Below are positions 4,395-34,367 of a stretch of 34,481 nt of DNA, piece after piece. The notes below the pieces were generated by a model. The model worked only from the letters and a program-made list of their open reading frames with translations. It did no database searches and was not told the DNA's origin. A program made the position numbers and the translations under genes. Source of the stretch: PVC group bacterium (ex Bugula neritina AB1) (GTDB taxonomy: Bacteria; GCA-001730085); NCBI GenBank assembly GCA_001730085.1, contig MDLB01000098.1, forward strand, positions 1 to 34,481, written 5' to 3'. The first letter of the stretch is position 1; each line of letters starts with the position of its first letter.

Positions 4395-5891
4395 TTAGTC
4401 TTTCATTATTAAAAAGAATGAACGGTGTGGGGGGAAAGCTGTAGCAGAAGATGAAGCTTGGGGAGGAGGATTATATGGAAAAATTTCGTCATGATCAGAT
4501 TTACCAACGACGATTTTTGCTTCATCAAAATAATGAGTGTGATTCAAGGGCATAGTCAGTCTCATTTCAGGTTGAGTCCTATGCCAATGGGCGGCGGTTC
4601 GATATCGAGAACCCCATTTAGCTGGATAGGTTCTAGACTCAGGGGAAGGTCCAATGGTGACTCTTGGATTTGCTGTTCCCCACTGCCCTGGAGCATGAGA
4701 ATGTTTCACATTGAGAGTTGTTTCTGGCAAATCGGACTCATGTGTATGGCTAGTTCTATTAATAGATTGATTTATCGTAGCAAGGTTGGTTGGTTGTGAA
4801 GCCCCTCGAATAAAAAGGTTTCTTAAGTTAGGAGTATTGTTGGTTCCATCACAGATATGCCATCCGCTGGGGATGGTGTATGCATTTCCGTAATAAAGAG
4901 TGATAGATTTTGAGGGTAAGAGGAATTGCATTTTTTCTCTCAAAGGTTCGTTAATTTGTAATTCGATTTTTTGATTTGATTCAGGGCGTGCTTCAATGCG
5001 AACATCGCCAGTTTGTCCATCCAATTGAAATATAGGGTGTGGCACGGGATATGTTGAAGAAAAATGTCGGACGATAAATCCACGTTTTTGATCTATCGAT
5101 GAACGTGAGATATTTCCTCCAATACGAAAGCGTAATGCTGAATTTTGGAAGATGTTAAGATTTGAGTAATTAGAACCAGAAAAAGAAGGATTTGGGTGCC
5201 GGTAACTAGAGCCTCCTTTGGAAGCCTTATCATTTAGCAGACCATTTGTGTCTCCTTCGTTTGCCATATAGACTCCCCAGAAATTTTCATCTGTTTGATC
5301 GATATTTGAAAAAATTAGCGTTTTTTCGGCTTCTAGCTCTAATGATTTTTCTATGAAGATATATGAATTGTTGCAAGGTTGAGGAGGCGCAAGTAACTCA
5401 GGAGGAACACTAGGAGGATAATGAGAGGCAGGGAATAAAGGCCTATTCGGGTCTTCTGTTGTTATATAGATGTCATTTTCAGATTTCAGAGTTAGAAGGC
5501 TCTGGCTTTTTAGTTCTGACTGTTTAGATTTTATTCCTGTAGTCATAGAGCTAAAAATGATATCGCTGCTTTTACTAACGGTAGAGACTAGCATGGATCG
5601 ATTGGAGATGAGTAAAGCATTAGAACCTTGCGGTTCTAATATGCGAAGTCCTTTGTGAAAAATCAAAGGCTTTAGATTAGAGGTATCGAGTCTTTTATCA
5701 ATACCGTAAATCGACCCTGTGAGTGTTATATTTTTAGAAAATAAGCTTTCAAAGTCTCCGAAAGGTGCAGTTAGTACTTTTGAAAGCTCTCTTTTCTGTT
5801 TTTTAGGGTACAGGTTTGGGCTGACAGAAATGAGAGAGACAAAGAAAGTAAAAACGAAAAGATATTTGTTTTTTATAGTAAGTTTTTTCAA
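4395..5891 (-). CDS. Exported protein with C-terminal phage-tail-collar-like domain (copy 3)
   Basis: A 498-residue protein, last gene of the minus-strand block. The start is TTG at 5891-5889, with TAAGGAG (5907-5901) nine bases before it. The N-terminus has a basic start and a hydrophobic segment (about 9-25), a signal peptide or anchor. Residues 40-330 look beta-rich and contain a Pro-rich stretch around EDPNRPLFPA. The collar-like signature IPSGWHICDG....PNLRNLFIRGA begins near residue 339, and the protein ends PPHRSFFLIMKD, the usual end of microcystin-dependent/collar domains. His-x-His occurs three times in the domain (SHTHES, KHSHAP, NHTHYF). In phage fibres such domains form trimeric tips that bind receptors; here the signal peptide suggests a surface or secreted role. 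Exact function is unknown. Confidence 0.75.
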   Translation of the reverse strand: MKKLTIKNKYLFVFTFFVSLISVSPNLYPKKQKRELSKVLTAPFGDFESLFSKNITLTGSIYGIDKRLDTSNLKPLIFHKGLRILEPQGSNALLISNRSMLVSTVSKSSDIIFSSMTTGIKSKQSELKSQSLLTLKSENDIYITTEDPNRPLFPASHYPPSVPPELLAPPQPCNNSYIFIEKSLELEAEKTLIFSNIDQTDENFWGVYMANEGDTNGLLNDKASKGGSSYRHPNPSFSGSNYSNLNIFQNSALRFRIGGNISRSSIDQKRGFIVRHFSSTYPVPHPIFQLDGQTGDVRIEARPESNQKIELQINEPLREKMQFLLPSKSITLYYGNAYTIPSGWHICDGTNNTPNLRNLFIRGASQPTNLATINQSINRTSHTHESDLPETTLNVKHSHAPGQWGTANPRVTIGPSPESRTYPAKWGSRYRTAAHWHRTQPEMRLTMPLNHTHYFDEAKIVVGKSDHDEIFPYNPPPQASSSATAFPPHRSFFLIMKD

Positions 5892-5971
5892 CAGAGTAGG
5901 CTCCTTATTTTTTTAGAATATTAAAAAATTTTATACAAAAACATAAAGTTTATAGGGCTTCCTTTGTTTTA

Positions 5972-6565
5972 TCAATATTTGTAAAAATCATTGAAGTTAT
6001 TTACAATAACATATGAATTGTTGCAAGGTTTAGATGGGACAAGTAATCCAGAAGGAACACTAGGCGGGTAATGACCTGCTGGAAATAAAGGTCTATTCGG
6101 GTCCTCTGTTATTATATAGATATCATTTTTAGATGTAAACATAAGAATATTATAGTTTTTTTGTATTTTAACTTGATAACCTAGTTCTGTATTCCTCGAA
6201 TCAAAAGCGATAAGGTGATCGTAGGTAGGAATCAAGGTGCGTTGGTTAGATATATCCCAATAAGGCATATTAAAAGATCTCTGGCGAGAATATGCAGAAT
6301 AATAGTAGTCTTCAATATGTAGTCCTTTGTGAAAAAAAACTGGTTGGAGGTCAGATATTTCGAGGCTGTTATTAATCCCATATAAAGCACCTGTAAGGTT
6401 AATATTTTTGGAGTGTAAGACTTCAAAATCTCCCAAAGGAGTTGCTACCAATTGAGCAAGTTCTCTCTTTTGTTTTTTTTGATAAATGTTGTGACTAATA
6501 GATGCGAATGAGATAAGAAAAATAAAGGCGAGAACATATCTTTTGTTATTAAAAAAATTTTTCAA
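5972..6565 (-). pseudogene. Truncated, frameshifted copy of the collar-domain protein
   Basis: About 197 residues from TTG at 6565-6563, which has AGGAG (6579-6575) nine bases upstream, the same arrangement as its neighbour at 5891. An ATG at 6574 touches the ribosome binding site and is less likely. The protein matches the N-terminal part of the downstream paralog (KKQKREL, IFHKGL, EDPNRPLFPA, HYPPSVP, PCNNSY), then ends at a TGA with the unrelated tail NNFNDFYKY. Immediately downstream, in another frame, 5988-5950 reads IFTNIDKTKE, matching the paralog's IFSNIDQTDE. A deletion and frameshift have therefore removed the collar domain. It may still make a short exported protein. Confidence 0.75.
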
Positions 6566-6583
6566 TGAAGGCATCTCCTATTC

Positions 6584-7951
6584 TTAGGTTTTCATTAAAA
6601 AGAGAAGCTTAGCAAATGAGGGCAGTTGATTTTCAACCCCAGAGCTATCACTGAACAAATGAGGGTTCTGTGAAGAGTCAAGGGCAACGCTCATATTTTG
6701 GCTTGGCAAAAAGAATTTGATAAGTTCATTTTGAGCTAAAAAATGTCTATGACCAAAAGGGATAGTATACCAGCCATAGAAAAGAGGTCTTTTTAGGTAA
6801 TTAAAATGGTCGGGATTTAGCAGAACCACATAGGCGAAGTGATGTGTATATGCAAATCCGTGATTATAGACGTGTGTAAAATCTCTGCTTAATGATGATA
6901 CGCCATTAAAGCCTCTAAGAGGAATATAACAATTGGGTTGCGAGGGATGGTTAGTTTGAAGAGTGATATTCCCAGATGGAGACAAAGAGTGGGAATGACT
7001 ATAAGCACCTCCTTGAGGAAGGTTTAAAGAAGATGGAAGTCCTTTAGCACAACCTTTAAAAAAAAGGTTTGTCATGTTTGGAGCCTCATTATTTGATCCA
7101 TTACAGGGTAACCAGTTATTGGCAGAAGGAAGATTATCTTCTGCGTAGGCAATTATGATACCTCTAGGGATGGGCTGCTCAGTGTAGGGGTCAAGATATT
7201 GACCCTTTATATCTAAATCACCTTTTATATGAATAGCCCCTGTACCTCCTCTTACGGACATAAGAGTTTCTCCAGTAGTATTTTCTACAATGAAACCACC
7301 ATCTAGATTAAGGTTCCTAGGTGATATGAGGTAGTCTTGTGTTTTAATCCAAAGAGATTTATTAGGTGCGGCATAGATTGATCCATTATGGTTACCTTGT
7401 TTAAATATTAGTTTTTTAAGAAAGATTTTTGGTGTAGACAGAACGATTTTAGATCCTTCCTTGCTACTAGAGGTATCTGTTAGATTATAACCTGCCCTTA
7501 TTGCTATACTACCAGGACTTCTAAGGCCGATAGGGTTATTTTCTTTATTCAAAATTAACCCACTCAGGGCATCATAAAAAAATACCCCAGATCCTAAAAA
7601 CTGACTATCGTCATAGTTAAATCGGATTTCAGAAGGTTTTATGGAGATATAGTTCGAGAGATCTTGATGTGCTTTAGAACTATAAGGTTTTAGGAGCTCA
7701 TCGGCGACTCGCGCTTCTTGAGGAATATAAAGGGGTGGAACACTTTGAGGATTTTCAGGGTCGTCTGATTTAGAGTGGAGAGGTGTTATAAATCCTGAAA
7801 CAAAAATAGCATTAGCTGTAACGTTTTCATAGTCAGCTGAAAATCCTGCCGAAGTTTCGTAGTAGCTTCGATCTTCGGAAAGTTCTTGTGCTATTAGAAA
7901 ATTGAAAGAAAAAAATAAATATAAACTTATAAAAATAATTTTAAATATCAT
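6584..7951 (-). CDS. Exported protein with C-terminal phage-tail-collar-like domain (copy 2)
   Basis: A 455-residue protein starting at ATG 7951 with AAGGAT upstream. The N-terminus is a signal peptide: hydrophobic residues 2-19, then LIAQ-ELSED. The middle is beta-rich with fibre-like wording (GAIHIKGDLDIKGQYLD), followed by IPRGIIIAYA and a collar-like segment around residue 280, with WLPCNGSNNEAPNMTNLFFKG in place of the more usual GW.xCDG..xTPNL..RFLRG. It ends KLLFLMKT. Two His-x-His pairs are present (SHSHSL and GHRHFL). It follows copy 1 after 15 bases and precedes the truncated copy by 18 bases, so all are probably on one transcript. The domain match is weaker than in its neighbours but the architecture is the same. 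Confidence 0.7.
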   Translation of the reverse strand: MIFKIIFISLYLFFSFNFLIAQELSEDRSYYETSAGFSADYENVTANAIFVSGFITPLHSKSDDPENPQSVPPLYIPQEARVADELLKPYSSKAHQDLSNYISIKPSEIRFNYDDSQFLGSGVFFYDALSGLILNKENNPIGLRSPGSIAIRAGYNLTDTSSSKEGSKIVLSTPKIFLKKLIFKQGNHNGSIYAAPNKSLWIKTQDYLISPRNLNLDGGFIVENTTGETLMSVRGGTGAIHIKGDLDIKGQYLDPYTEQPIPRGIIIAYAEDNLPSANNWLPCNGSNNEAPNMTNLFFKGCAKGLPSSLNLPQGGAYSHSHSLSPSGNITLQTNHPSQPNCYIPLRGFNGVSSLSRDFTHVYNHGFAYTHHFAYVVLLNPDHFNYLKRPLFYGWYTIPFGHRHFLAQNELIKFFLPSQNMSVALDSSQNPHLFSDSSGVENQLPSFAKLLFLMKT

Positions 7952-7966
7952 TTTTTATATCCTTAT

Positions 7967-9490
7967 TTATGGAAGTTTAACAATAAAGACAATGTCTGCG
8001 TAAGGAGGAAGCCATTCATTAGCACTTGTTGATGTGAAAGGGATATTCATTTTTGAACCCGTAGAGGTCATGGCACTTTCAGGTATATTTACGTCAAAAT
8101 ATCTATTGGAAAGAATATGTCTATGGAATAACTCTCCGGAATCCCCCTTTGGTTTCCAGGTACCACCGATTGCAAGGCTGGAAGCTTTTGAAATGCTCCA
8201 CTCATCGCCACCACCGTATATTCTTCTAGCGAGAGGGATTGATGATCCGGTGTTATTAAGAAGCAGAATGGATTGACGAGTAAAGGCTTTGCGGTAGCCA
8301 CCTTCTGAGACTGCTGTGTCTAAAGTCGCCATTCGAATATCAGATGTATGAGGAAGAGTATGATTAGAATTAGTTGTGCTAACAGGCCAAGGGTTTGAGG
8401 TTACTTTGTTTTCAAAATAACCCTGTGAGGACACACTGTGAGGTAAAACAGATAAGTCAACTTCACCAGCAGGAATATCGTGATAATGAGGATACCCACC
8501 TCCTAATACAGGGGTTTTAGAGGCGGATGCGCTCCCTCTAAGGAATCGTCCAACGAGGTTGGGCGTCAAGTATCCATCGACGATTGAACCATCACATATG
8601 GACCAACCCTCGGGGATAGAGCTTCCGCAAAACATAACGACAGAGCCTGTTGGAACCAAAGGTTCGCCGTAGCTCTTTATACGACCATCAACATTTAGAT
8701 AATATTTAACTTTAACTTCCGATGTAGAAGGGTTAATGGAAAAATTGACATCATTATTATTGCTTATATAGAAAGAGCCTTCATTGGTAGAATTGATATC
8801 AAAAATAATACCTTCTGCAAAATTACCTTGATCAATTTTTTTAAGCGTCATTTTTGGAGCAAGTGATTTATCCAAGCTAGGGTTATTTGAAAAAATGAAT
8901 GATGTTTTTTGTGATAACCATACGTTTGAGTAAAGTTTAACAGTTCCAGATCCGTTAAAAGTTGGCACATAGTTGTATTGATTAGTAGGTCCATTGTAAT
9001 TAGTTTGAAAGTGTATAGGTCCTTTGTGGTAAAGATGCAAATGAGATAGATCACTATTTGTCGAAAGGCCTGTTGATGAAGATCCAAACCTTATGCTTGC
9101 AGGATTTTTATTGAACTTTAGTTCGTAATCAGTAAGATGTACAAAACTTTGAGAAGGATCCATTGCGGTAGCGAGAAATGATGAGTCGTTGACTTCAGGA
9201 ATAAATTCTCCAACGACCAAGCTTCCTTTTACTTTAACATTGTCTATATCGTAAAGAGAATTGATTTCTTTTTTTGCAGAATCAGCATTGTATATACCAC
9301 CCAAACTTTTTATGGAATGAGTTTGAACCCGTTCATAAGAGGCAAAAGGTATTGGATAGAGTGTTTCCAGATGAGTAAATTTACGTAATTTTTCCTGTTC
9401 TTCATCGTCCTTGGCTAAAAGATAAGAGGGTTGAAAATAAGAAAAAAGGTTGAAAAAAAAGTAACATAGAAAAACAAGTTTGAACCTCAT
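7967..9490 (-). CDS. Exported protein with C-terminal phage-tail-collar-like domain (copy 1)
   Basis: First gene of the block, 507 residues from ATG 9490-9488. GGGGAGGAG lies about seven bases upstream; an ATG eleven codons further upstream would place that site inside the gene. The signal peptide spans about residues 1-26, ending in YLLA-KDDEE. A beta-rich fibre-like middle leads to VPTGSVVMFCGSSIPEGW and a collar signature ICDG....TPNLVGRFLRGS at about residues 292-315, the clearest of the set. The C-terminus WLPPYADIVFIVKLP is typical of the family. His-x-His occurs in PHYHDI and FHRHIL. No capsid, terminase, portal or integrase gene is nearby, which argues against a prophage origin of the operon as it stands. 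Confidence 0.78.
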   Translation of the reverse strand: MRFKLVFLCYFFFNLFSYFQPSYLLAKDDEEQEKLRKFTHLETLYPIPFASYERVQTHSIKSLGGIYNADSAKKEINSLYDIDNVKVKGSLVVGEFIPEVNDSSFLATAMDPSQSFVHLTDYELKFNKNPASIRFGSSSTGLSTNSDLSHLHLYHKGPIHFQTNYNGPTNQYNYVPTFNGSGTVKLYSNVWLSQKTSFIFSNNPSLDKSLAPKMTLKKIDQGNFAEGIIFDINSTNEGSFYISNNNDVNFSINPSTSEVKVKYYLNVDGRIKSYGEPLVPTGSVVMFCGSSIPEGWSICDGSIVDGYLTPNLVGRFLRGSASASKTPVLGGGYPHYHDIPAGEVDLSVLPHSVSSQGYFENKVTSNPWPVSTTNSNHTLPHTSDIRMATLDTAVSEGGYRKAFTRQSILLLNNTGSSIPLARRIYGGGDEWSISKASSLAIGGTWKPKGDSGELFHRHILSNRYFDVNIPESAMTSTGSKMNIPFTSTSANEWLPPYADIVFIVKLP

Positions 9491-9523
9491 GATGCTTCTC
9501 CTCCCCAAAAAATAACTAATCAA

Positions 9524-10129: not shown

Positions 10130-10485
10130 GGCAAAGTTGATTGGATCATCGGTGCTGTTGATCTCAAGATATTGATTTAACAGTGCAGGAAAGTCTGGAC
10201 TCCGCAGGGTAAGATGCTACTGTTATGGTTGTGAGGGTGACCTTAAGGAAAGTGCCACAGAAAAAAAACAGCCTATTGGAAACGACTCGTTTCGATTGAT
10301 GGGTGATGGTGAAAAGGTGAGGTAAGAGCTCACCAGTTCTGGTTTGAAACCCAGAAGCTAGGTAAACCCCATCTGGAGCAAGACCAAGTAGGAAACGTGA
10401 TAGTTACCCGCTATATGTTTTCGGGTTGGTTGCATTAGATGAATGATGGTCATAAACAGAATCCAGCTTATAGATCAACTTTGCC
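10130..10485 (+). ncRNA. rnpB: RNase P RNA (M1 RNA, bacterial type A)
   Basis: The catalytic RNA that trims the 5' leader of tRNA precursors, working with the protein RnpA. The ends pair perfectly: GGCAAAGTTGAT at 10130-10141 with ATCAACTTTGCC at 10474-10485 (helix P1). Conserved core pieces appear in order: AGGAAAGTCTGGACTCC near 10188, AGTGCCACAGAAA near 10251, GGTGAAAAGGTGAGGTAAGAG near 10307, the AAACCCCATCTGGAGCAAGACC block near 10364, and TAGATGAATGATGGTCA...ACAGAATCCAGCTTA before the 3' end. The length of about 356 bases is normal. The 3' strand of P1 runs into T6 (10486-10491), so P1 can double as an intrinsic terminator. Confidence 0.95.
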
Positions 10486-10491
10486 TTTTTT
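10474..10491 (+). terminator. T-run after the rnpB P1 helix
   Basis: The 3' strand of the 12-bp P1 helix is followed at once by TTTTTT (10486-10491). Pairing with the distant 5' strand, this could end transcription of rnpB before the uppS promoter. Confidence 0.5.
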
Positions 10492-25563: not shown

Positions 25564-28245
25564 ATGACGAAAGAACAAACGCCTATTTTTCCTAATGATA
25601 TTGACTCTTTGGAAACGGAAGAATGGATGGAGTCTTTGGATTATGTTTTGGAGCAACATGGTCCTGAACGTGCCAGATATTTGCTCAATAAAGTGAAAGA
25701 TTGGGCTGTTTTTAGAGGAGTAAAGTCTCCACTTTCTCCCTATACACCTTATATTAATACGATCCTCCCGGAAGAAGAAACAGAATATCCAGGGGATGAA
25801 AGTTTAGAAGAAACTTTCGAGAACTGGATGAGGTGGAACGCCATGGCTATGGTGGTTAGAGCTAATAAAAAAAGTGATGGTGTTGGTGGTCATATAGCAA
25901 CATACGCTTCTATATCTATGATGTTTGAAATGGGTTTTAATCATTTTTTTCGTGCGAAAACGAATGATTCTGCAGGAGATAGGATTTTTTATCAAGCACA
26001 TGCTTGTCCCGGGATATATGCTCGTTCTTTTTTAGAAGGTCGTTTGACAGAAAAGAATTTAGAAAACTTTAGGAGAGAGTTGTCACCGGAAGGTGGACTT
26101 TCTTCTTATCCACACCCTTGGTTAATGCCTGATTACTGGGAATACCCTTCTGTTTCTATGGGACTTGCTCCCATTACGGCGATTTATCAAGCTCGCTTTA
26201 ATCGCTATCTAACCAACAGAGGCATCAAAGATGTTTCAGCTTCAAATGTTTGGGCTTTTATTGGTGATGGAGAGACAGATGAACCTGAAACCTTGGGAGC
26301 TATTCGTTTCGCTGGTCGTGAAAAACTCGATAACCTAACATTTATCGTTAACTGTAACTTGCAACGTTTAGATGGTCCTGTTTGTGGGAATGGAAAAATC
26401 ATACAGGAACTTGAAGGTTCTTTTAGAGGTGCTAATTGGAATGTTATTAAGGTTATTTGGGGTCAAGATTGGGATGAGCTTTTTTCTAGAGATGAAAGAG
26501 GTCTTTTGGCTCAAAGAATGACAGAAGTTTTGGACGGTGAGTATCAAAAATATAAGACCATGGAAGGTTCTTATATTCGTGAATCTTTTTTTGGTTCAGA
26601 CCCTTATCTTTTGGATCTCGTTAAAGATAAAACGGACGAGGAATTGCAAAAGTTAAGCTGGGGAGGACATGATCGTAAACGTCTTTATAATGCTTATAAA
26701 ATGGCTCAAAATCACAAAGGTCAGCCCACCGTTATTTTGGTAAAATCTGTTAAAGGTTATAAGCTTGGTTCTGCGGGGGAAGCGATGAATGTTGCTCACC
26801 AACAGAAAAAAATGACCGAAGAGCAGCTCTTAACATTTAGGGATCGTTTGAACTTGGATTTGAGTGATGAAGATGCTTTGAGTATGAAATTTATTCAACC
26901 TAAAAGCGATTCTAGAGAAGTCACTTATATGCGTGAAAGACGTGAAAATTTGGGAGGATCTCTTCCAGCAAGAACTGTTTTTGCTAAACCTTTGCAAGCT
27001 CCACCTCTTTCTGCTTTTAAAGAGTTTTTAGATGGGACAAATGGCAGAGAAGTCTCGACAACGATGGCCTTTGTACGGGTTTTAGGAACGTTGTTGAAAG
27101 ATAAAAATATAGGGAAAAGGGTTGTTCCGATTGTTCCAGATGAAGCACGAACTTTTGGTATAGATGCTCTTTTTAGACAAGTTGGGATTTTTTCTAGCAA
27201 AGGTCAACTCTATACGCCTGTTGATAAAAACAACTTTTTGTATTACAAAGAGTCGACAGATGGACAGATTTTACAAGAAGGTATTAATGAAGCCGGAGCG
27301 ATGGCTTCTTTCATCGCTGCAGGTAGCTCCTACATGGCTTTTGATGAATACATGATACCTTTTTATGTTTATTACTCGATGTTTGGTTTTCAGAGAGTTG
27401 GCGATTCAATTTGGATGGCAGCAGATACTAGGACAAAAGGTTTTTTACTAGGTGCTACTGCTGGTCGAACAACTCTGAATGGAGAGGGCCTACAACACGA
27501 AGATGGGCATAGTCATGTTCAAGCGTTGACAGTTCCCAATTTGAAAGCTTACGACCCCACCTTTGCTTATGAAATAGCTGTTATTGTGAGGGAAGGTATT
27601 TATCGGATGTATGAGAAGGGTGATGATATTTTTTATTATCTCACTCTGCAAAATGAAAACTATGCTATGCCCGAAATGCCTGAAAATGCTGAAGATGGAA
27701 TCATTCGAGGTTGTTATTGTTGGAAAAGGCAACCATCTGTTAAAAAAGGTTTAAAAGCTCATCTTTTAGGTAGTGGATCTATAATGCAGTCTGTTATTAA
27801 AGCTGCTGATATTCTTCGTGACAAATATGAGATTTCTACCGATATATGGAGTGTGACAAGTTATAAAGAGTTACGTAATGATGCCTTGGAAGTGGAAAGG
27901 TGGAATCGCCTTAATCCTTCTGAAAATCCTAAAAAGTCATATGTTCAAGAACTTTTTAAAGAAGAAGAGGGTGTTTTTTTAGCGGCATCGGACTATATGA
28001 AAATTTTACCTGATGGTATTCGCTCTTGGATGCCTAAGAACTACACCGCTTTGGGGACAGATGGGTTTGGAATGAGTGCTTCTCGCGAAGAATTGCGTCG
28101 TTATTTTGAAGTTGATGCCGAATGCATTGTGTTGGGAGTTCTGGCGATGTTTGTGGAGAAAGGTGATTTCTCTAAAGACGATTTTTCTCAAGCGATCAAA
28201 GATTTGGGTGTGGATCCCGGTAAGCGAACGCCTTTTGTGGTTTGA
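25564..28245 (+). CDS. aceE: Pyruvate dehydrogenase E1 component, homodimeric type
   Basis: Decarboxylates pyruvate with thiamine diphosphate and passes the acetyl group to the lipoyl arms of AceF. The 893 residues match the single-chain E1 of E. coli (887), unlike the alpha/beta E1 of many bacteria. The N-terminus DIDSLETEEWMESLDYVL and HISTYAS-like GGHIATYAS segment are typical. The thiamine-binding motif is GDGETDEPE from residue 234, followed by NCNLQRLDGPVCGNGKIIQELEG. KSVKGYKLG, ARTFGID, YYKESTDGQILQEGI and AGRTTLNGEGLQHEDGHS continue in order. AAGGA lies nine bases before the ATG. The gene leads an aceE-aceF-lpd cluster. Confidence 0.97.
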   Translation: MTKEQTPIFPNDIDSLETEEWMESLDYVLEQHGPERARYLLNKVKDWAVFRGVKSPLSPYTPYINTILPEEETEYPGDESLEETFENWMRWNAMAMVVRANKKSDGVGGHIATYASISMMFEMGFNHFFRAKTNDSAGDRIFYQAHACPGIYARSFLEGRLTEKNLENFRRELSPEGGLSSYPHPWLMPDYWEYPSVSMGLAPITAIYQARFNRYLTNRGIKDVSASNVWAFIGDGETDEPETLGAIRFAGREKLDNLTFIVNCNLQRLDGPVCGNGKIIQELEGSFRGANWNVIKVIWGQDWDELFSRDERGLLAQRMTEVLDGEYQKYKTMEGSYIRESFFGSDPYLLDLVKDKTDEELQKLSWGGHDRKRLYNAYKMAQNHKGQPTVILVKSVKGYKLGSAGEAMNVAHQQKKMTEEQLLTFRDRLNLDLSDEDALSMKFIQPKSDSREVTYMRERRENLGGSLPARTVFAKPLQAPPLSAFKEFLDGTNGREVSTTMAFVRVLGTLLKDKNIGKRVVPIVPDEARTFGIDALFRQVGIFSSKGQLYTPVDKNNFLYYKESTDGQILQEGINEAGAMASFIAAGSSYMAFDEYMIPFYVYYSMFGFQRVGDSIWMAADTRTKGFLLGATAGRTTLNGEGLQHEDGHSHVQALTVPNLKAYDPTFAYEIAVIVREGIYRMYEKGDDIFYYLTLQNENYAMPEMPENAEDGIIRGCYCWKRQPSVKKGLKAHLLGSGSIMQSVIKAADILRDKYEISTDIWSVTSYKELRNDALEVERWNRLNPSENPKKSYVQELFKEEEGVFLAASDYMKILPDGIRSWMPKNYTALGTDGFGMSASREELRRYFEVDAECIVLGVLAMFVEKGDFSKDDFSQAIKDLGVDPGKRTPFVV

Positions 28246-28522
28246 GATGGGTGTAAGGGTACCCCATAATGTTTTGTTGGAAGACTTTTAAAAGGGTTGG
28301 CTTTTTTGAAAAAGATTCAGGCTCTATAAGTGAGTATGTCCTTTTTCCAAAAATGAAATTTTTGCGAAATACAGCTTAGGGTTTATTGGAAGACGTTTTT
28401 CGCAGTGCTTTCAGAATGTCAAAAAGTTTAAAAGTTTTCTGAAAAAAGGGTGAGAGGTATTTTGTAGCGATCTCCGTTTATTTGTGTTTGTGTGAACGGG
28501 TCAAAAATAAGGACAGCTTGCT
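28246..28522 (+). other. Spacer between aceE and aceF
   Basis: A 277-base gap, wide compared with the 10 bases between aceF and lpd. ATGGG/CCCAT could pair just after the aceE stop (28247-28267) but there is no T-run. TGCGAAA and TTTCGCA arms occur about 30 bases apart near 28360-28405. A separate promoter for aceF is possible but no good one was seen. Confidence 0.35.
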
Positions 28523-30091
28523 ATGGTTATTGATTTATGTTTACCTGAAATAGGGGAAGGTGTTACGGAGGCTGATGTTGCTAGCCTTTTAGTTAAAGTT
28601 GGTGATATTGTTGAAGAAGGTCAAACTTTGATCGAACTTGAAACAAATAAAGCCACGGTCGATTTCCCTTCCGAAGTTTCAGGGGTTGTTAAAGATATTT
28701 TAGTAAAAGAAGGTCAAACAGTTTCTATTGGTGCTGTTTTGATTAAAATAGAAGAGAGCGGAGCCTCTGAAAATCCTGACAACTCTAAAGAGGAATCAGA
28801 TTCTTTGAATACACCGGATGTTTCCGAAGTGGCATCTTCTGGAGGAGAAAAAGATCTACTTTTGCCCGAGATAGGTGAAGGTGTGACTTCCGCCGAGATT
28901 GCACGTATTTTGGTTCAAGAGGGAGACTCTATAGATAAAGATCAGTTGCTGATGGAAATCGAAACCCAAAAAGCAACCGTCGACTTTCCAGCTGATTGCT
29001 CGGGGATTATTCAAAAAATATTAGTTAAAGAAGGTGATTCTGTTTCTATTGGAGACAAGCTTTTAGTTGTTCAAGAAAAATCCGGATCTTCTAAAAAAGA
29101 TATAGCGACTTCTGTGAAAGATGCAAAAGTAGAAAAAACAGAAGCAGCGATCAATCCTTCTTTTCAACGCTCTAGAAATACAGGTGTGAAAGCTGATCCT
29201 TCTCGTCGGATTCCAGCGTCTCCTTCTTTGCGTAGGCGTGCGCGTGTTCTTGACATAGACTTGTATGATGTTCCCGGGACAGGCCCTGGTGGTCGTATAA
29301 CGATCGAAGATTTTGACCGGTTTTTGTTGGCTCAGAATTCATCCGACTCTTCTTTAAAAGCACCTTCTTTGCCAGACTTTTCTCAGTGGGGAAAAATCAC
29401 CGAAGAGCCTTATAAGTCTTTACGCAAGAAAACAGCCGAGCATGTGAGCATGTCGGCAAGGTTGATACCACATGTTACTCAATTTGATGAAGCGGATGTG
29501 ACAGAGTTAGAGCTTTTACGTAAAGAAAAAGGGCAAGAGATCAAGAAAAAGGGTGGTAAGTTAACCCCGATCGTTTTATTGCTTAAAGCTGTTGCTCATG
29601 CTTTGAAAAAGTTCCCACAGTTCGCCACAAGTTTGGATGAAAAAAAGGGAAAAATTGTATACAAAGATTATTGTCATATAGGGATTGCTGTTGATACCCC
29701 CAAAGGCCTTATGGTTCCAGTGATTCAGGATGTTGATAAAAAGAGCTTGGAAGAGCTTGCGTTAGAATTGGTTGATATTGGCGAACGTGCACGTTTAGGT
29801 AAGATCAAACTTTCTGAGTTGCAAGGTGGTGTTTTCACTATTTCTAGCTTGGGTCATTTAGGTGGTACGTATTTTACACCTATTATTAATTATCCGGAAG
29901 TTGCTATTTTGGGAGTTTCTAGACAAGAATACAAGCCGGTTGTTAGGCAAGGGGAAATTGTTTCACGCTTGATTTTACCTTATGCGCTTTCTTACGATCA
30001 TCGTGTGATAGATGGTGTTGCTGCGGTAAAATTCACAAGAGAGCTAGCGGAATATTTACAGACCAATGGACCTTTTTCGTCCTTAAATTGA
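28523..30091 (+). CDS. aceF: Pyruvate dehydrogenase E2, dihydrolipoamide acetyltransferase
   Basis: Core of the complex; transfers acetyl groups from E1 to coenzyme A. The 522 residues hold two lipoyl domains, with lipoylated lysines at K43 (ETNKATVDF) and K150 (ETQKATVDF), each followed by a flexible Ser/Glu-rich linker. Next is the peripheral-subunit-binding domain at about 232-272 (RIPASPSLRRRARVLDIDL, GTGPGGRITIEDFDRFL). The catalytic domain ends in SYDHRVIDG with catalytic H493. E. coli AceF has three lipoyl domains and about 630 residues, so this is a two-domain version. AAGGA precedes the ATG. Confidence 0.96.
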   Translation: MVIDLCLPEIGEGVTEADVASLLVKVGDIVEEGQTLIELETNKATVDFPSEVSGVVKDILVKEGQTVSIGAVLIKIEESGASENPDNSKEESDSLNTPDVSEVASSGGEKDLLLPEIGEGVTSAEIARILVQEGDSIDKDQLLMEIETQKATVDFPADCSGIIQKILVKEGDSVSIGDKLLVVQEKSGSSKKDIATSVKDAKVEKTEAAINPSFQRSRNTGVKADPSRRIPASPSLRRRARVLDIDLYDVPGTGPGGRITIEDFDRFLLAQNSSDSSLKAPSLPDFSQWGKITEEPYKSLRKKTAEHVSMSARLIPHVTQFDEADVTELELLRKEKGQEIKKKGGKLTPIVLLLKAVAHALKKFPQFATSLDEKKGKIVYKDYCHIGIAVDTPKGLMVPVIQDVDKKSLEELALELVDIGERARLGKIKLSELQGGVFTISSLGHLGGTYFTPIINYPEVAILGVSRQEYKPVVRQGEIVSRLILPYALSYDHRVIDGVAAVKFTRELAEYLQTNGPFSSLN

Positions 30092-30101
30092 GGAATTTAT
30101 C

Positions 30102-31529
30102 ATGGAGAAAGAAACACTTCAAGTTGATCTAGCTGTTATTGGAGCTGGTCCTGGTGGTTATACAGCTGCTTTTCGTGCGGCTGACTTAGGTATGAATGTA
30201 GCCCTTATTGAGGGAGATGATCGATTAGGAGGAACCTGTCTTTTGAGAGGGTGTATTCCTTCGAAGGCTCTCTTGAACACGGCACATATTTTACACGAGG
30301 CAAAAGAAGTTTCGAGTAGAGGTATTTCTTTTGGAGAGTCTAAGATAGATCTTTCATCTTTACGTGGATGGAAAAACAAAATCATTGAACAACTCTCTTC
30401 GGGCTTACAAGATTTGACCAAACGTCGTAAGATTCACTCTGTTAAAGGGTGGGCTTCTTTTGAAAGTAGCACTTCTTTAAAAGTTGAATCGAAAGAGGGT
30501 ATTTCACGTGTGACGTTTGATAAAGCTATTTTGGCAACAGGCTCTGTTCCGATTAAACTACCTGGAGTCTCCATTGAAAGTGATCGCTTAATAGACTCAA
30601 CAGGAGCTTTAGATCTTAATGATATCCCCAAAAAACTTTTGGTTATTGGTGGGGGTGTTATTGCTTTAGAGTTAGGGCAGGTTTATGGAGAGTTTGGGAG
30701 TGAAGTTACGGTTGTTGAACTCATGGATGGGATTCTACCTGGGGTTGATCGTGATTTGGTTAGGCCTCTTCAGAAAAGATTAAAAAGTTCTTTTAAAAAC
30801 ATTTATCTTCGTACCAAAGTCACAAATGTCAAGGAAGTTGATGAAGGGTTAGAAGTTACTATGACGAGTGAAGATGGCACACGTACAGAAGTTTTTGATA
30901 AAGTTCTTTGTGCTATTGGGCGTAAACCTCATACTAATAAATTAGGATTGGAAAACACTTTGGTTAAGACAAACCGTGCAGGGTTTGTTACTGTCGACTC
31001 TTACCAAAGGACAGATGACACGAATATTTTTGCGATTGGAGATGTCACGGTAGGTCCGATGTTAGCCCATAAAGCAACTGCCGAAGGGCGTCTTGTTGCA
31101 GAGTATATTAGTGGTGAACCTATTACGACAGATGAAAAGATGATCCCCGGGATTGTTTATACCGATCCAGAAGTTGCTTGGTGTGGATTGAGTGAAGCCG
31201 AGGCAAAAGAGCAAGGTATAAAGGTTTCTGTTGGAAAGTTCCCATGGGGAGCATCTGGGAGAAACCTAGCTATCGGAAGAACAGACGGTCTTACAAAGAT
31301 CATTTTTGAAGAGAAAACAGAAAGAGTCCTTGGTGTAGGGATTGTTGGTTTTAATGCGGGCGAGTTGCTAGCTGAAGGGGCATTAGCCATAGAAATGGCT
31401 GCTGTTGCAGAAGATTTAGCAGGTACGATTCATGCTCATCCAACTTTATCCGAAACGTTGGCTGGTTCCACAGAAGTTTTTTTAAAGAAGGCAACAGATC
31501 TTTATCTTGGTCCTCCCAAAAAAAAATAA
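30102..31529 (+). CDS. lpd: Dihydrolipoamide dehydrogenase (E3)
   Basis: Flavoprotein that reoxidises the lipoyl arms of AceF and makes NADH. The 475 residues match the family (E. coli 474). The FAD-binding GAGPGGYTAAFRAADLG opens the protein, the redox disulfide is C46/C51 in GGTCLLRGCIPSK, the NAD site has VIGGGVIALELGQVYGEFG, the second FAD motif is TNIFAIGDV, and the catalytic pair is H446/E451 in HAHPTLSE. It starts ten bases after aceF with GAGG just upstream, so it is co-transcribed. It could also serve other lipoyl enzymes not seen here. Confidence 0.96.
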   Translation: MEKETLQVDLAVIGAGPGGYTAAFRAADLGMNVALIEGDDRLGGTCLLRGCIPSKALLNTAHILHEAKEVSSRGISFGESKIDLSSLRGWKNKIIEQLSSGLQDLTKRRKIHSVKGWASFESSTSLKVESKEGISRVTFDKAILATGSVPIKLPGVSIESDRLIDSTGALDLNDIPKKLLVIGGGVIALELGQVYGEFGSEVTVVELMDGILPGVDRDLVRPLQKRLKSSFKNIYLRTKVTNVKEVDEGLEVTMTSEDGTRTEVFDKVLCAIGRKPHTNKLGLENTLVKTNRAGFVTVDSYQRTDDTNIFAIGDVTVGPMLAHKATAEGRLVAEYISGEPITTDEKMIPGIVYTDPEVAWCGLSEAEAKEQGIKVSVGKFPWGASGRNLAIGRTDGLTKIIFEEKTERVLGVGIVGFNAGELLAEGALAIEMAAVAEDLAGTIHAHPTLSETLAGSTEVFLKKATDLYLGPPKKK

Positions 31530-32083
31530 AAAAATAGGGTTTTCTTAGAGAGTTTTAGAGGGATAGTAGGCCTTAAATCTCAGGAGATCCATCTTTACTT
31601 ATAATCTTTTTGATTATTTTAAACCTTTTTTGATGCCTGATTGAATCAGGCATCAGGAGAGGGATCAATAAAATCTTATATATTTAATACATACATTTTA
31701 ATATTGTTAGGCACCTCTAAGTTCTCTTGTGGGACTAAGATTTAAGAGTGCTGTATCCTTCTATTCTAAGATAATTATTCTATTTTGACGTATTAGATGT
31801 CTGGTATAGCCTAGGAATGTTTGAAAGAGAATGTTAATCGAGAGTTTTTTATGCTTAGGGTTTATAGGTCGATTGAGGCTGTTATAAAGTAAAGGATAAG
31901 ATTTCTTATGCTACTTTTAAAAGATCTTGAGTAAAGATTCTTTTAATAAAGCATGTAGGATATTTTGTAACACATTTATTTTCTACAGATTGGAACTTTT
32001 CCTCAAACAAATTTTAAAGGAGTAGAAAGTTTGTTTGAAAAAATCATATACTTGATCGTAAAAAAACTATTTTTGAAAAAAGC
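31530..32083. other. Intergenic region after lpd
   Basis: About 550 bases without a supported gene, carrying the strong hairpin at 31631-31655. Possible short frames lack ribosome binding sites and recognisable products. Confidence 0.5.
31631..31655. repeat. Perfect 11-bp stem, 3-base loop hairpin downstream of lpd
   Basis: TGATGCCTGAT (31631-31641) is followed by TGA and ATCAGGCATCA (31645-31655). The stem is perfect and relatively GC-rich for this DNA. A T-run precedes it (31626-31631) but none follows on either strand as RNA, so it is not a standard intrinsic terminator. It could protect the 3' end of the pyruvate dehydrogenase mRNA, or be an interspersed palindrome. Confidence 0.6.
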
Positions 32084-32147
32084 TAGACTGTTGCAAAATA
32101 GTATAGATGATCTTCTTGAGGATTCTAAGGTCTTTTGCAACAGTCTA
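32084..32147. mobile_element. 64-bp miniature inverted-repeat element or bidirectional terminator
   Basis: TAGACTGTTGCAAAA (32084-32098) and its exact complement (32133-32147) flank 34 bases. The 15-bp arms resemble insertion-sequence ends of the 'ctgTTGCAAA' kind. If the outer TA is a target duplication, the arms are 13 bp with TA on both sides, as for IS630/Tc1-like elements. As RNA the arms form a strong stem followed by AAGTTTTTT on the plus strand and GCTTTTTTC on the minus strand, so it could also end both lpd and the minus-strand gene at 32176. Confidence 0.6.
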
Positions 32148-32175
32148 AAGTTTTTTAAATGCCGGAAGAGTTTTT

Positions 32176-33849
32176 TTAACTGTTTTTTTCAAGAATAGAG
32201 TTCATAAGGTTTGAGTAAAAATCTGATTTAGAAAGTTCATTATAAAGAGATAGTATTTGTTCTTCTTCTTCTCTTTTTTGTTTCTCGATTTCTTTTACAT
32301 TCGATAAATCCTCTTCTAAATGGTTAATAAATGTTTCTTTTTCTTTTAAGGTTTTATCCTCCCTTTCTTGTAAACCTAGTAAGCCCAAGACTTTGGTTCT
32401 GAAGGAATATATGGTGGTTGAGATTTGAGATTTTAAAAAAGAATCTTCTGAGAGGCTTCTCGCTTCTGCTGAGTCTACCTCTGAATAGAAGTCTGTGAGA
32501 TCTTGTTCTGATCTCTTGTTTGATCCCGCGTCTGATCCCGCGTTTGATAGTAATTTTGAGCAAAAGGTCTCGAAAGATTTATCTAGAGCTTCTTGGTTTG
32601 CAAGATCCTTACCCTCGTATCTTTCTAGAACTTTTTCTTTAAGAGTATCTTTGTGAGATTCAATTATTTGGAGGTTTGCGTTTTTTTTATCGTTGGCTAT
32701 TTTTTTGCAATCTTCAAGATCTTTTCGAGCTTTTTCGATATTCTCCCGAAGAGCTTTTTTTCTTGATTCGATGCTTCTCATATCACTTAGCTCTTTTTGA
32801 AGTAAATCTTCTTTTAATGAGCATAGGTTAAGTTTTTTTTCCTTTAATTCTTTGTTGTATAATTCTTTTTCTTTTCCTTTCTTTAATTCTTCAGACATAT
32901 GTTTAAGCTCTTGTTTTAGGTTTTCGATTTGTTCGCGTAATTCATTCATCTTTTCTGATCTGATTTTTTCTAATTCTTCTTTATCTTTTTTTGATTCAAA
33001 AACTTGACTCCAAGTCTTTTTAAAGAATGAATGATCCAGAGTTAATTGATAAAAAATTTGATTTTTTGCTCTTATTGTAAAATTATGATCTTCCGCTAAA
33101 GGTGTTGGTCTATTGTCAGGCTCTGTATCATCAGTCTCTGTATCATCAGTCTCTGTATCATCAGTCTCTGTATCATCAGTCTCTGTATCATCAGTCTCTG
33201 TATCATCAGTTTTTATAAATAAGGAGGATTGTTTAGCAAGGTTGAAAACTTCAGCTAAGGAAATTGTTTCATGATTTGTTTGACTAAGAAGATTAAAAAA
33301 TTCTTTGTATGGTGTAGGTATATAAGTGTATTTTAAGTATTTTTCAGATAGACCTATTAGATCGCTAAGAAACTCTTCGCATTCCTCTGTGCTCAGCGTC
33401 TCTGGATTATTATCGAGGATATAAAGACTCAAGATAAAGTTATCTAGTGTCACGGTTTCTTTCTCAAAAGTAAGTTTACTTCGTTCTAAATCAGAATTTA
33501 AGCCCAATAGGGCTCTAGTAGGAATTTTTTTTCTTTGTTTTGAGCTCTCCTTGATTAAAAAAGATCTACTTTGCTTCAAAAATAGACTTGTGAGCATCAA
33601 GGGATTATCTTCTTGATCCGAGGTTGGATAGAAGAAATTAGGAGTGTCTAAGCTTCTATGAGCTGAGTCTAAAAGTAAAAACAGAAGATGTCTTCTAAAG
33701 GAGTTTACATCTGATATAGACTTATAAGGGATTGGGACTAATGTTGATGAGTCTAAAGCTTTAAAAGGATTAATCATACAGGAATTAGGAGCTAAGGAGG
33801 ATAAAGGGTTTGACAATAGAAAGCTAAGTAAAATAAGAACCTTTTTCAT
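32176..33849 (-). CDS. Exported coiled-coil protein with Thr/Asp/Glu repeat
   Basis: A 557-residue protein I do not recognise. ATG 33849 has AAGGAAAAG about nine bases upstream. A signal peptide is clear: MKKVLILLSFLLSNPLSSLA. Residues 22-212 are mixed, probably helical. Residues about 214-243 are six copies of TDDTE, made by a perfect 15-bp DNA repeat. From about 285 to 430 and again near 500-545 the chain is highly charged with heptads (KEELEKIRSEKMNELREQIE, KEIEKQKREEEEQ), predicting long coiled coils. The likely place is periplasm, surface or, in a host-associated cell, outside. It stands alone, with a terminator-like inverted repeat after its stop. Confidence 0.75.
   Translation of the reverse strand: MKKVLILLSFLLSNPLSSLAPNSCMINPFKALDSSTLVPIPYKSISDVNSFRRHLLFLLLDSAHRSLDTPNFFYPTSDQEDNPLMLTSLFLKQSRSFLIKESSKQRKKIPTRALLGLNSDLERSKLTFEKETVTLDNFILSLYILDNNPETLSTEECEEFLSDLIGLSEKYLKYTYIPTPYKEFFNLLSQTNHETISLAEVFNLAKQSSLFIKTDDTETDDTETDDTETDDTETDDTETDDTEPDNRPTPLAEDHNFTIRAKNQIFYQLTLDHSFFKKTWSQVFESKKDKEELEKIRSEKMNELREQIENLKQELKHMSEELKKGKEKELYNKELKEKKLNLCSLKEDLLQKELSDMRSIESRKKALRENIEKARKDLEDCKKIANDKKNANLQIIESHKDTLKEKVLERYEGKDLANQEALDKSFETFCSKLLSNAGSDAGSNKRSEQDLTDFYSEVDSAEARSLSEDSFLKSQISTTIYSFRTKVLGLLGLQEREDKTLKEKETFINHLEEDLSNVKEIEKQKREEEEQILSLYNELSKSDFYSNLMNSILEKNS
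33121..33210. repeat. Six perfect tandem copies of a 15-bp unit
   Basis: CTCTGTATCATCAGT repeats six times without a change, inside the minus-strand gene, and encodes TDDTE per unit. Since 15 is a multiple of three, gain or loss of copies keeps the frame and only changes the length of the acidic linker. A diverged half unit with TDDTE-like coding flanks it at the C-terminal side (EPDN). Confidence 0.95.
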
Positions 33850-34367
33850 GATTACTTTTCCTTTTGAAACGGGTTTTTGGTTTTGAAAAAAAACACATTA
33901 AAGATTATAAAAACAAAAAATTAAGATTTAATTATATTATTTTGTAATTATTTATTTTCTTAAACGTCTAAAGTTTTTTAAATTTATTTTCAAATTTTCA
34001 AGATATATCATATTTTTGAAGAGAGTCTTCGATTGATGAAATATCCCTATTGGAAGTATTTAAAATTTTTTAAGAAGTTTAATGAAAGGTAGAATTTTAA
34101 CATATTTATCATTAATATTTAAAATAAAAAAAACTTTTTAAATGTATATAATTATTTTTTATAAGTTTTTATAGAAATTATTAAACTTTTTCAATTATAT
34201 AGAAACCTCTGCACTAAAATAAAAAAAGTATAAAAGTTAAGAGTATAAAGAGAAAAAATACATAAAATAGATAAACATACAGTTACAATTGAAGTTTAAT
34301 ATATAATAAATAATCAACTTAAATAATCTAAAAATAAATATAATTCAAAGATAAAGTGGCTAAGATT
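33850..34367. other. Very AT-rich intergenic region at the right side
   Basis: About 520 bases of extremely AT-rich sequence. On the minus strand TATAAT (33909-33904) lies about 55 bases before the start of the exported coiled-coil gene and could be its -10; the -35 is poor. No gene, hairpin with T-run or repeat was identified in the rest. Confidence 0.45.

Follow-up and report, generated by a model that had tools for sequence, protein, structure and literature searches.

The window, that is, the whole stretch of 34,481 nucleotides that was analysed, is an entire contig of a genome that is distributed over 108 contigs and estimated to be 97.6% complete. On its minus strand, positions 32,176 to 33,849 are occupied by an orphan ORF of 557 amino acids with an ATG start, whose product is probably exported. 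The codon use of this ORF, compared with that of the genes in the window, scores 0.095 in frame and -0.078 in the shifted frame; four ORFs with signal-like N-termini at 4395-9523 range from 0.058 to 0.140, and the remaining genes of the window lie above it at about 0.15 to 0.24. A Shine-Dalgarno-like AAGGA, recognised by eye, is located nine bases upstream of the ATG (33,859-33,863, minus strand), and 3' of the stop codon a hairpin with a perfect 16-bp stem is followed by a T-run (32,083-32,148, minus strand). The MFE of the hairpin is -27.4 kcal/mol (106-base stretch; z -5.24, with none of 200 shuffles equally stable), and, though its loop is long, the hairpin together with the T-run is probably the terminator of the transcript. 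It is absent from the output of the consensus terminator scan, which was restricted to loops of 3 to 8 and found one site against 1.0 in shuffles, hence no excess; the promoter scan showed no excess either (10 sites, against 12.8 in shuffles). The codon bias, the Shine-Dalgarno-like site and the probable terminator support the ORF as a real gene. As a separate observation, the hairpin arm TAGACTGTTGCAAAA (about 32,084-32,147) has five further sites in the genome at 0 or 1 mismatch, one of them exact, compared with two matches for the reversed-pattern control. Four of these five extra sites run on into TA, and the recurring arms are perhaps remnants of the ends of a mobile element, or a repeated regulatory motif.

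The first 20 residues of the protein (33,790-33,849, minus strand) were classified by hydropathy as a signal-like N-terminus. In this segment, MKKVLILLSFLLSNPLSSLA, two lysines precede the 10-residue stretch whose hydropathy is the highest in the whole protein, 2.89 at residue 4 versus at best 1.61, at residue 55, away from the N-terminus. Five other signal-like N-termini in the window range from 2.07 to 3.02, which includes the value for this protein. The sole A-type cleavage site is SLA/P, where the proline at +1 is unfavourable for signal cleavage. Given this N-terminal sequence, it is plausible that the protein is exported. As Omp85 was found in the genome, the cell has an outer membrane, and a Sec-type signal alone would thus deliver the protein to the periplasm and not to the surface. 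The description of the product as a secreted protein in an earlier note on this DNA is plausible as regards export, which the signal-like N-terminus suggests. In the same genome, three matches to secretin and seven to OEP (TolC-type), the latter apparently in four ORFs, show that the cell has some type of outer-membrane protein for export or efflux. FHIPEP, a marker of T3SS or flagellar export, had no match in the genome at E <= 0.001, in a search where 4 of 14 controls were matched; in the search for ATP/ADP-translocase no control was matched.

The N-terminal region proper spans residues 24-213 (33,211-33,780, minus strand) and is about half helical in a single-sequence model, where only residues 134-213 attain a pLDDT of 61-87. 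Both AlphaFold models used here are single-sequence and poor, with mean pLDDT values of 52.3 and 49.5. When the N-terminal model was searched against PDB folds, 62 matches were obtained at E <= 10 and none at E <= 0.001, and heptad periodicity in this region does not differ from shuffles (P 0.27). Two internal resemblances were considered and set aside. An EF-hand pair in residues 134-213, an idea raised by eye, found no counterpart in Pfam or among PDB sequences up to E 10, and the halves of the supposed duplication are no more similar to each other than shuffles are (P 0.23). An older duplication relating residues 36-92 to 175-213 was unconvincing, with P from 0.04 to 0.16 over nine settings and a best ungapped score that was equalled in 14 of 200 shuffles.

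Residues 214-243 are formed by (TDDTE)6, which is encoded at 33,121-33,210 (minus strand) by six copies, all identical, of the 15-bp unit ACTGATGATACAGAG. TRF placed the array at 33,116-33,210 (6.3 copies, score 183), and it is the strongest tandem repeat of the window, the runner-up among 13 TRF rows scoring 74. A 27-base pattern corresponding to about two adjacent units, with at most two mismatches allowed, has five matches in the 1.9-Mb genome, all inside the array, and its reversed control of the same length has none. If synonymous codons were chosen independently according to the codon use of the rest of the gene, six copies sharing every codon would be expected with P = 3.9e-7. As the units do not differ at any synonymous site, the array appears to be either recent or homogenised; the earlier note had claimed six identical repeats, a recent expansion or homogenisation and copy changes that keep the frame, and it is upheld by the array itself, by the identity at synonymous sites and by the unit length of 15 bp, respectively. 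The net charge across residues 214-246 is -19, and the single-sequence model gives the array low confidence and no secondary structure. At the DNA level, folding of the array barely exceeds that of shuffles (z -1.6, with 15 of 200 as stable). At 90 bp, the array lies within the span of ordinary short reads. More generally, copy numbers in draft assemblies call for caution, according to a published account (PMC6868369). None of the papers listed for 'TDDTE' looked relevant from its listing, and those listed on exported tail-collar proteins, repeat effectors, intragenic repeats and orphan secreted genes provided no more than background. A second short in-frame repeat, SDAG (12 bp x 2.3 copies; TRF), is present at 32,521-32,548 on the minus strand and is richer in G+C than the remainder of the gene.

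The C-terminal half is helix-rich over residues 264-555 (32,185-33,060, minus strand), most of which is spanned by helices in the single-sequence model, at a pLDDT of 30-44 up to residue 290 and of 50-79 over residues 291-550. Heptad periodicity was assessed against shuffles in nine overlapping regions, with P values uncorrected for their number, and a signal was detected in residues 283-375 (P 0.001; P 0.013 for 283-330) and 480-557 (P 0.007; P 0.002 for 495-545) only. It was not significant in residues 251-300 (P 0.31), 330-420 (P 0.17), 375-420 (P 0.56) or 420-470 (P 0.08). The long coiled coils that had been proposed for this protein are accordingly half right: heptads are found in the two segments named, residues 330-420 give no signal, and the helices are predicted only.

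In searches for relatives, the gene itself was the sole match in its own genome at E <= 1, and the whole protein matched its own genome but none of the other 58 among the 59 searched. With the N-terminal region as query, 2 of 386 genomes matched, the protein's own genome and one other (E 7.9e-5 for one genome). The latter match was rejected as a chance similarity, for it contains four stop codons and runs antisense to a 576-codon ORF; it re-aligns across just 47 columns. None of the 75 pattern-matching stretches in a collection of genome contigs and none of the three in a collection of viral contigs was confirmed, and the protein had no match among plasmids, phages or PDB sequences. Comparison of the whole protein with family libraries gave best E values of 0.17 (Pfam), 0.47 (NCBIfam) and 0.012 (PHROGs, residues 282-338), none of them convincing, and the C-terminal half alone matched Pfam HalX at E 0.03 with 15.2 bits, the cut-off being 23.2. 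These weak matches to Pfam, NCBIfam and PHROGs fall mostly in the coil-like half. The protein, previously called unrecognised, with a homolog search suggested, thus remains so across genomes, contigs, plasmids, phages, PDB and three family libraries. As the phylum is represented by two genomes among those compared, the absence of relatives may be due to poor sampling just as well as to a genuinely restricted distribution.

Several other features of the contig deserve mention. Of the four adjacent ORFs with signal-like N-termini at 4395-9523 (minus strand), three have parts resembling phage tail-collar or tail-fibre proteins, with best E values to PHROGs tail families of 2.8e-11, 0.0032 and 1.1e-9; one of the three matches Pfam Collar at E 1.1e-4 and 22.6 bits, slightly below the cut-off of 24. 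They are interlinked by weaker mutual matches, and no further phage-like gene was recognised among the subset of window ORFs that were scanned. The second of the four ORFs (5972-6574, minus strand; 200 aa) shares 46% identity over 190 columns with the N-terminal portion of the adjacent ORF and stops short of a collar part, and it is possibly a truncated copy. This row of exported collar-domain proteins may exceed the TDDTE protein in interest. In addition, a class A RNase P RNA (RF00010, 237 bits) is located at 10,133-10,486 on the plus strand, and 25,564-31,529 (plus strand) holds what we take to be a gene for a single-subunit-type pyruvate dehydrogenase E1, followed by those for E2 and E3. 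The E1 has a weak partial match in the phylum's other compared genome (30% over query positions 146-286, E 2.3e-4). A 25-base 16S pattern matched a single stretch, in a MAG titled 'Clostridia bacterium', with 78.6% identity over 1319 bases and 84.6% over a further piece of 65 bases.

We suggest that the product of the ORF is a lineage-restricted protein of the cell envelope whose N-terminal region is connected, through the acidic and disordered (TDDTE)6 spacer, with a partly coiled-coil helical rod, a reading to which we give about an even chance. The protein would be exported to the cell envelope, and the rod, long and predicted to be helical, would probably oligomerise. The spacer would have grown recently via in-frame slippage or recombination, and its main role may be that of a flexible linker, exposed to solvent and under little constraint as to its exact length. 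This putative architecture is drawn from one protein, with no homolog showing its conservation.

Alternatively, the hydrophobic N-terminal stretch may be an uncleaved helix that holds the protein in the inner membrane, with the spacer and the rod in the periplasm as a structural or scaffold element. Such an arrangement agrees with the helical rod and with the proline at +1 of the one A-type cleavage site, but the stretch is short for an anchor, the 19-residue hydropathy average of the protein being at most 1.39, and we consider this unlikely. Placing the protein on the surface or outside the cell, facing a host, with a repeat number that varies between strains and alters an interface or epitope, is rather doubtful. 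It agrees with the perfect in-frame array, the signal-like N-terminus and the failure to find relatives, and the secretin and OEP matches could serve export; however, a Sec-type signal alone stops at the periplasm, FHIPEP had no match and nothing found points to a host, and a single allele is known, with no second copy found. It is quite improbable that this is a cytoplasmic coiled-coil protein with a start that is hydrophobic by chance: its N-terminus is short with a poor cleavage site, and the export call derives from hydropathy, but no other stretch of the protein is as hydrophobic, and the other signal-like ORFs of the window have similar N-termini. Very little credence is given to the more elaborate proposal of a new lineage-specific secreted protein whose TDDTE spacer slips in length between strains and so tunes the reach of a surface rod to a host or partner cell. 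A spurious ORF or decaying gene, which the missing homologs and a codon score below that of core genes might suggest, is hardly credible in view of 557 open codons, an in-frame codon bias well over that of the shifted frame, the Shine-Dalgarno-like site and the probable terminator.

Returning to the lineage-restricted envelope protein, bacteria commonly have orphan exported proteins that contain short, perfect in-frame repeats, and on its own this one is ordinary in kind and matters little. Should the repeat number prove to vary between strains, the gene would offer a marker of variable length, and would hint at an interface that is changing, in a phylum represented by two genomes among those compared.

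Among known repeat proteins, TRP32, TRP47, TRP75 and TRP120 of Ehrlichia are described as type 1 secreted effectors, with HlyB, HlyD and TolC as the secretion apparatus and delivery into a host cell; they are acidic, with in-frame tandem repeats differing in sequence, length and number, contain few or no cysteines, and carry a non-cleavable C-terminal type 1 signal enriched in LDAVTSIF (PMC10225607). The TDDTE protein resembles them in having a tandem-repeat domain, here of six perfect units, and in being acidic (pI 5.00 in full and 4.95 from residue 24). In contrast to the Ehrlichia proteins, it has a signal-like N-terminus, a 5-residue unit and a long helix-rich C-terminal half, and its last 60 residues are not enriched in LDAVTSIF: judged by composition only, the fraction of these residues is 0.45 there, 0.53 in the last 100 and 0.54 in the whole protein. 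Five of its 557 residues are cysteines, none of them in the last 100. Since its C-terminus lacks the composition of the type 1 signal, the protein was not grouped with the Ehrlichia TRPs. PARCEL repeats are variable-number in-frame repeats in ORFs to which no function has been assigned, many of which have membrane-targeting sequences, and their units are amphipathic, 25 residues long and encoded by DNA with dyad symmetry (PMC2996958). The TDDTE protein is similar in carrying an in-frame repeat in an ORF with no assigned function, and differs in that its unit is acidic and of 5 residues and its array DNA folds weakly.

A broader class is formed by the orphan exported coiled-coil proteins of bacteria, which combine a signal-like segment, a helical rod and a low-complexity flexible spacer. 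Compared with these, the TDDTE protein stands out solely by the perfection of its short array.
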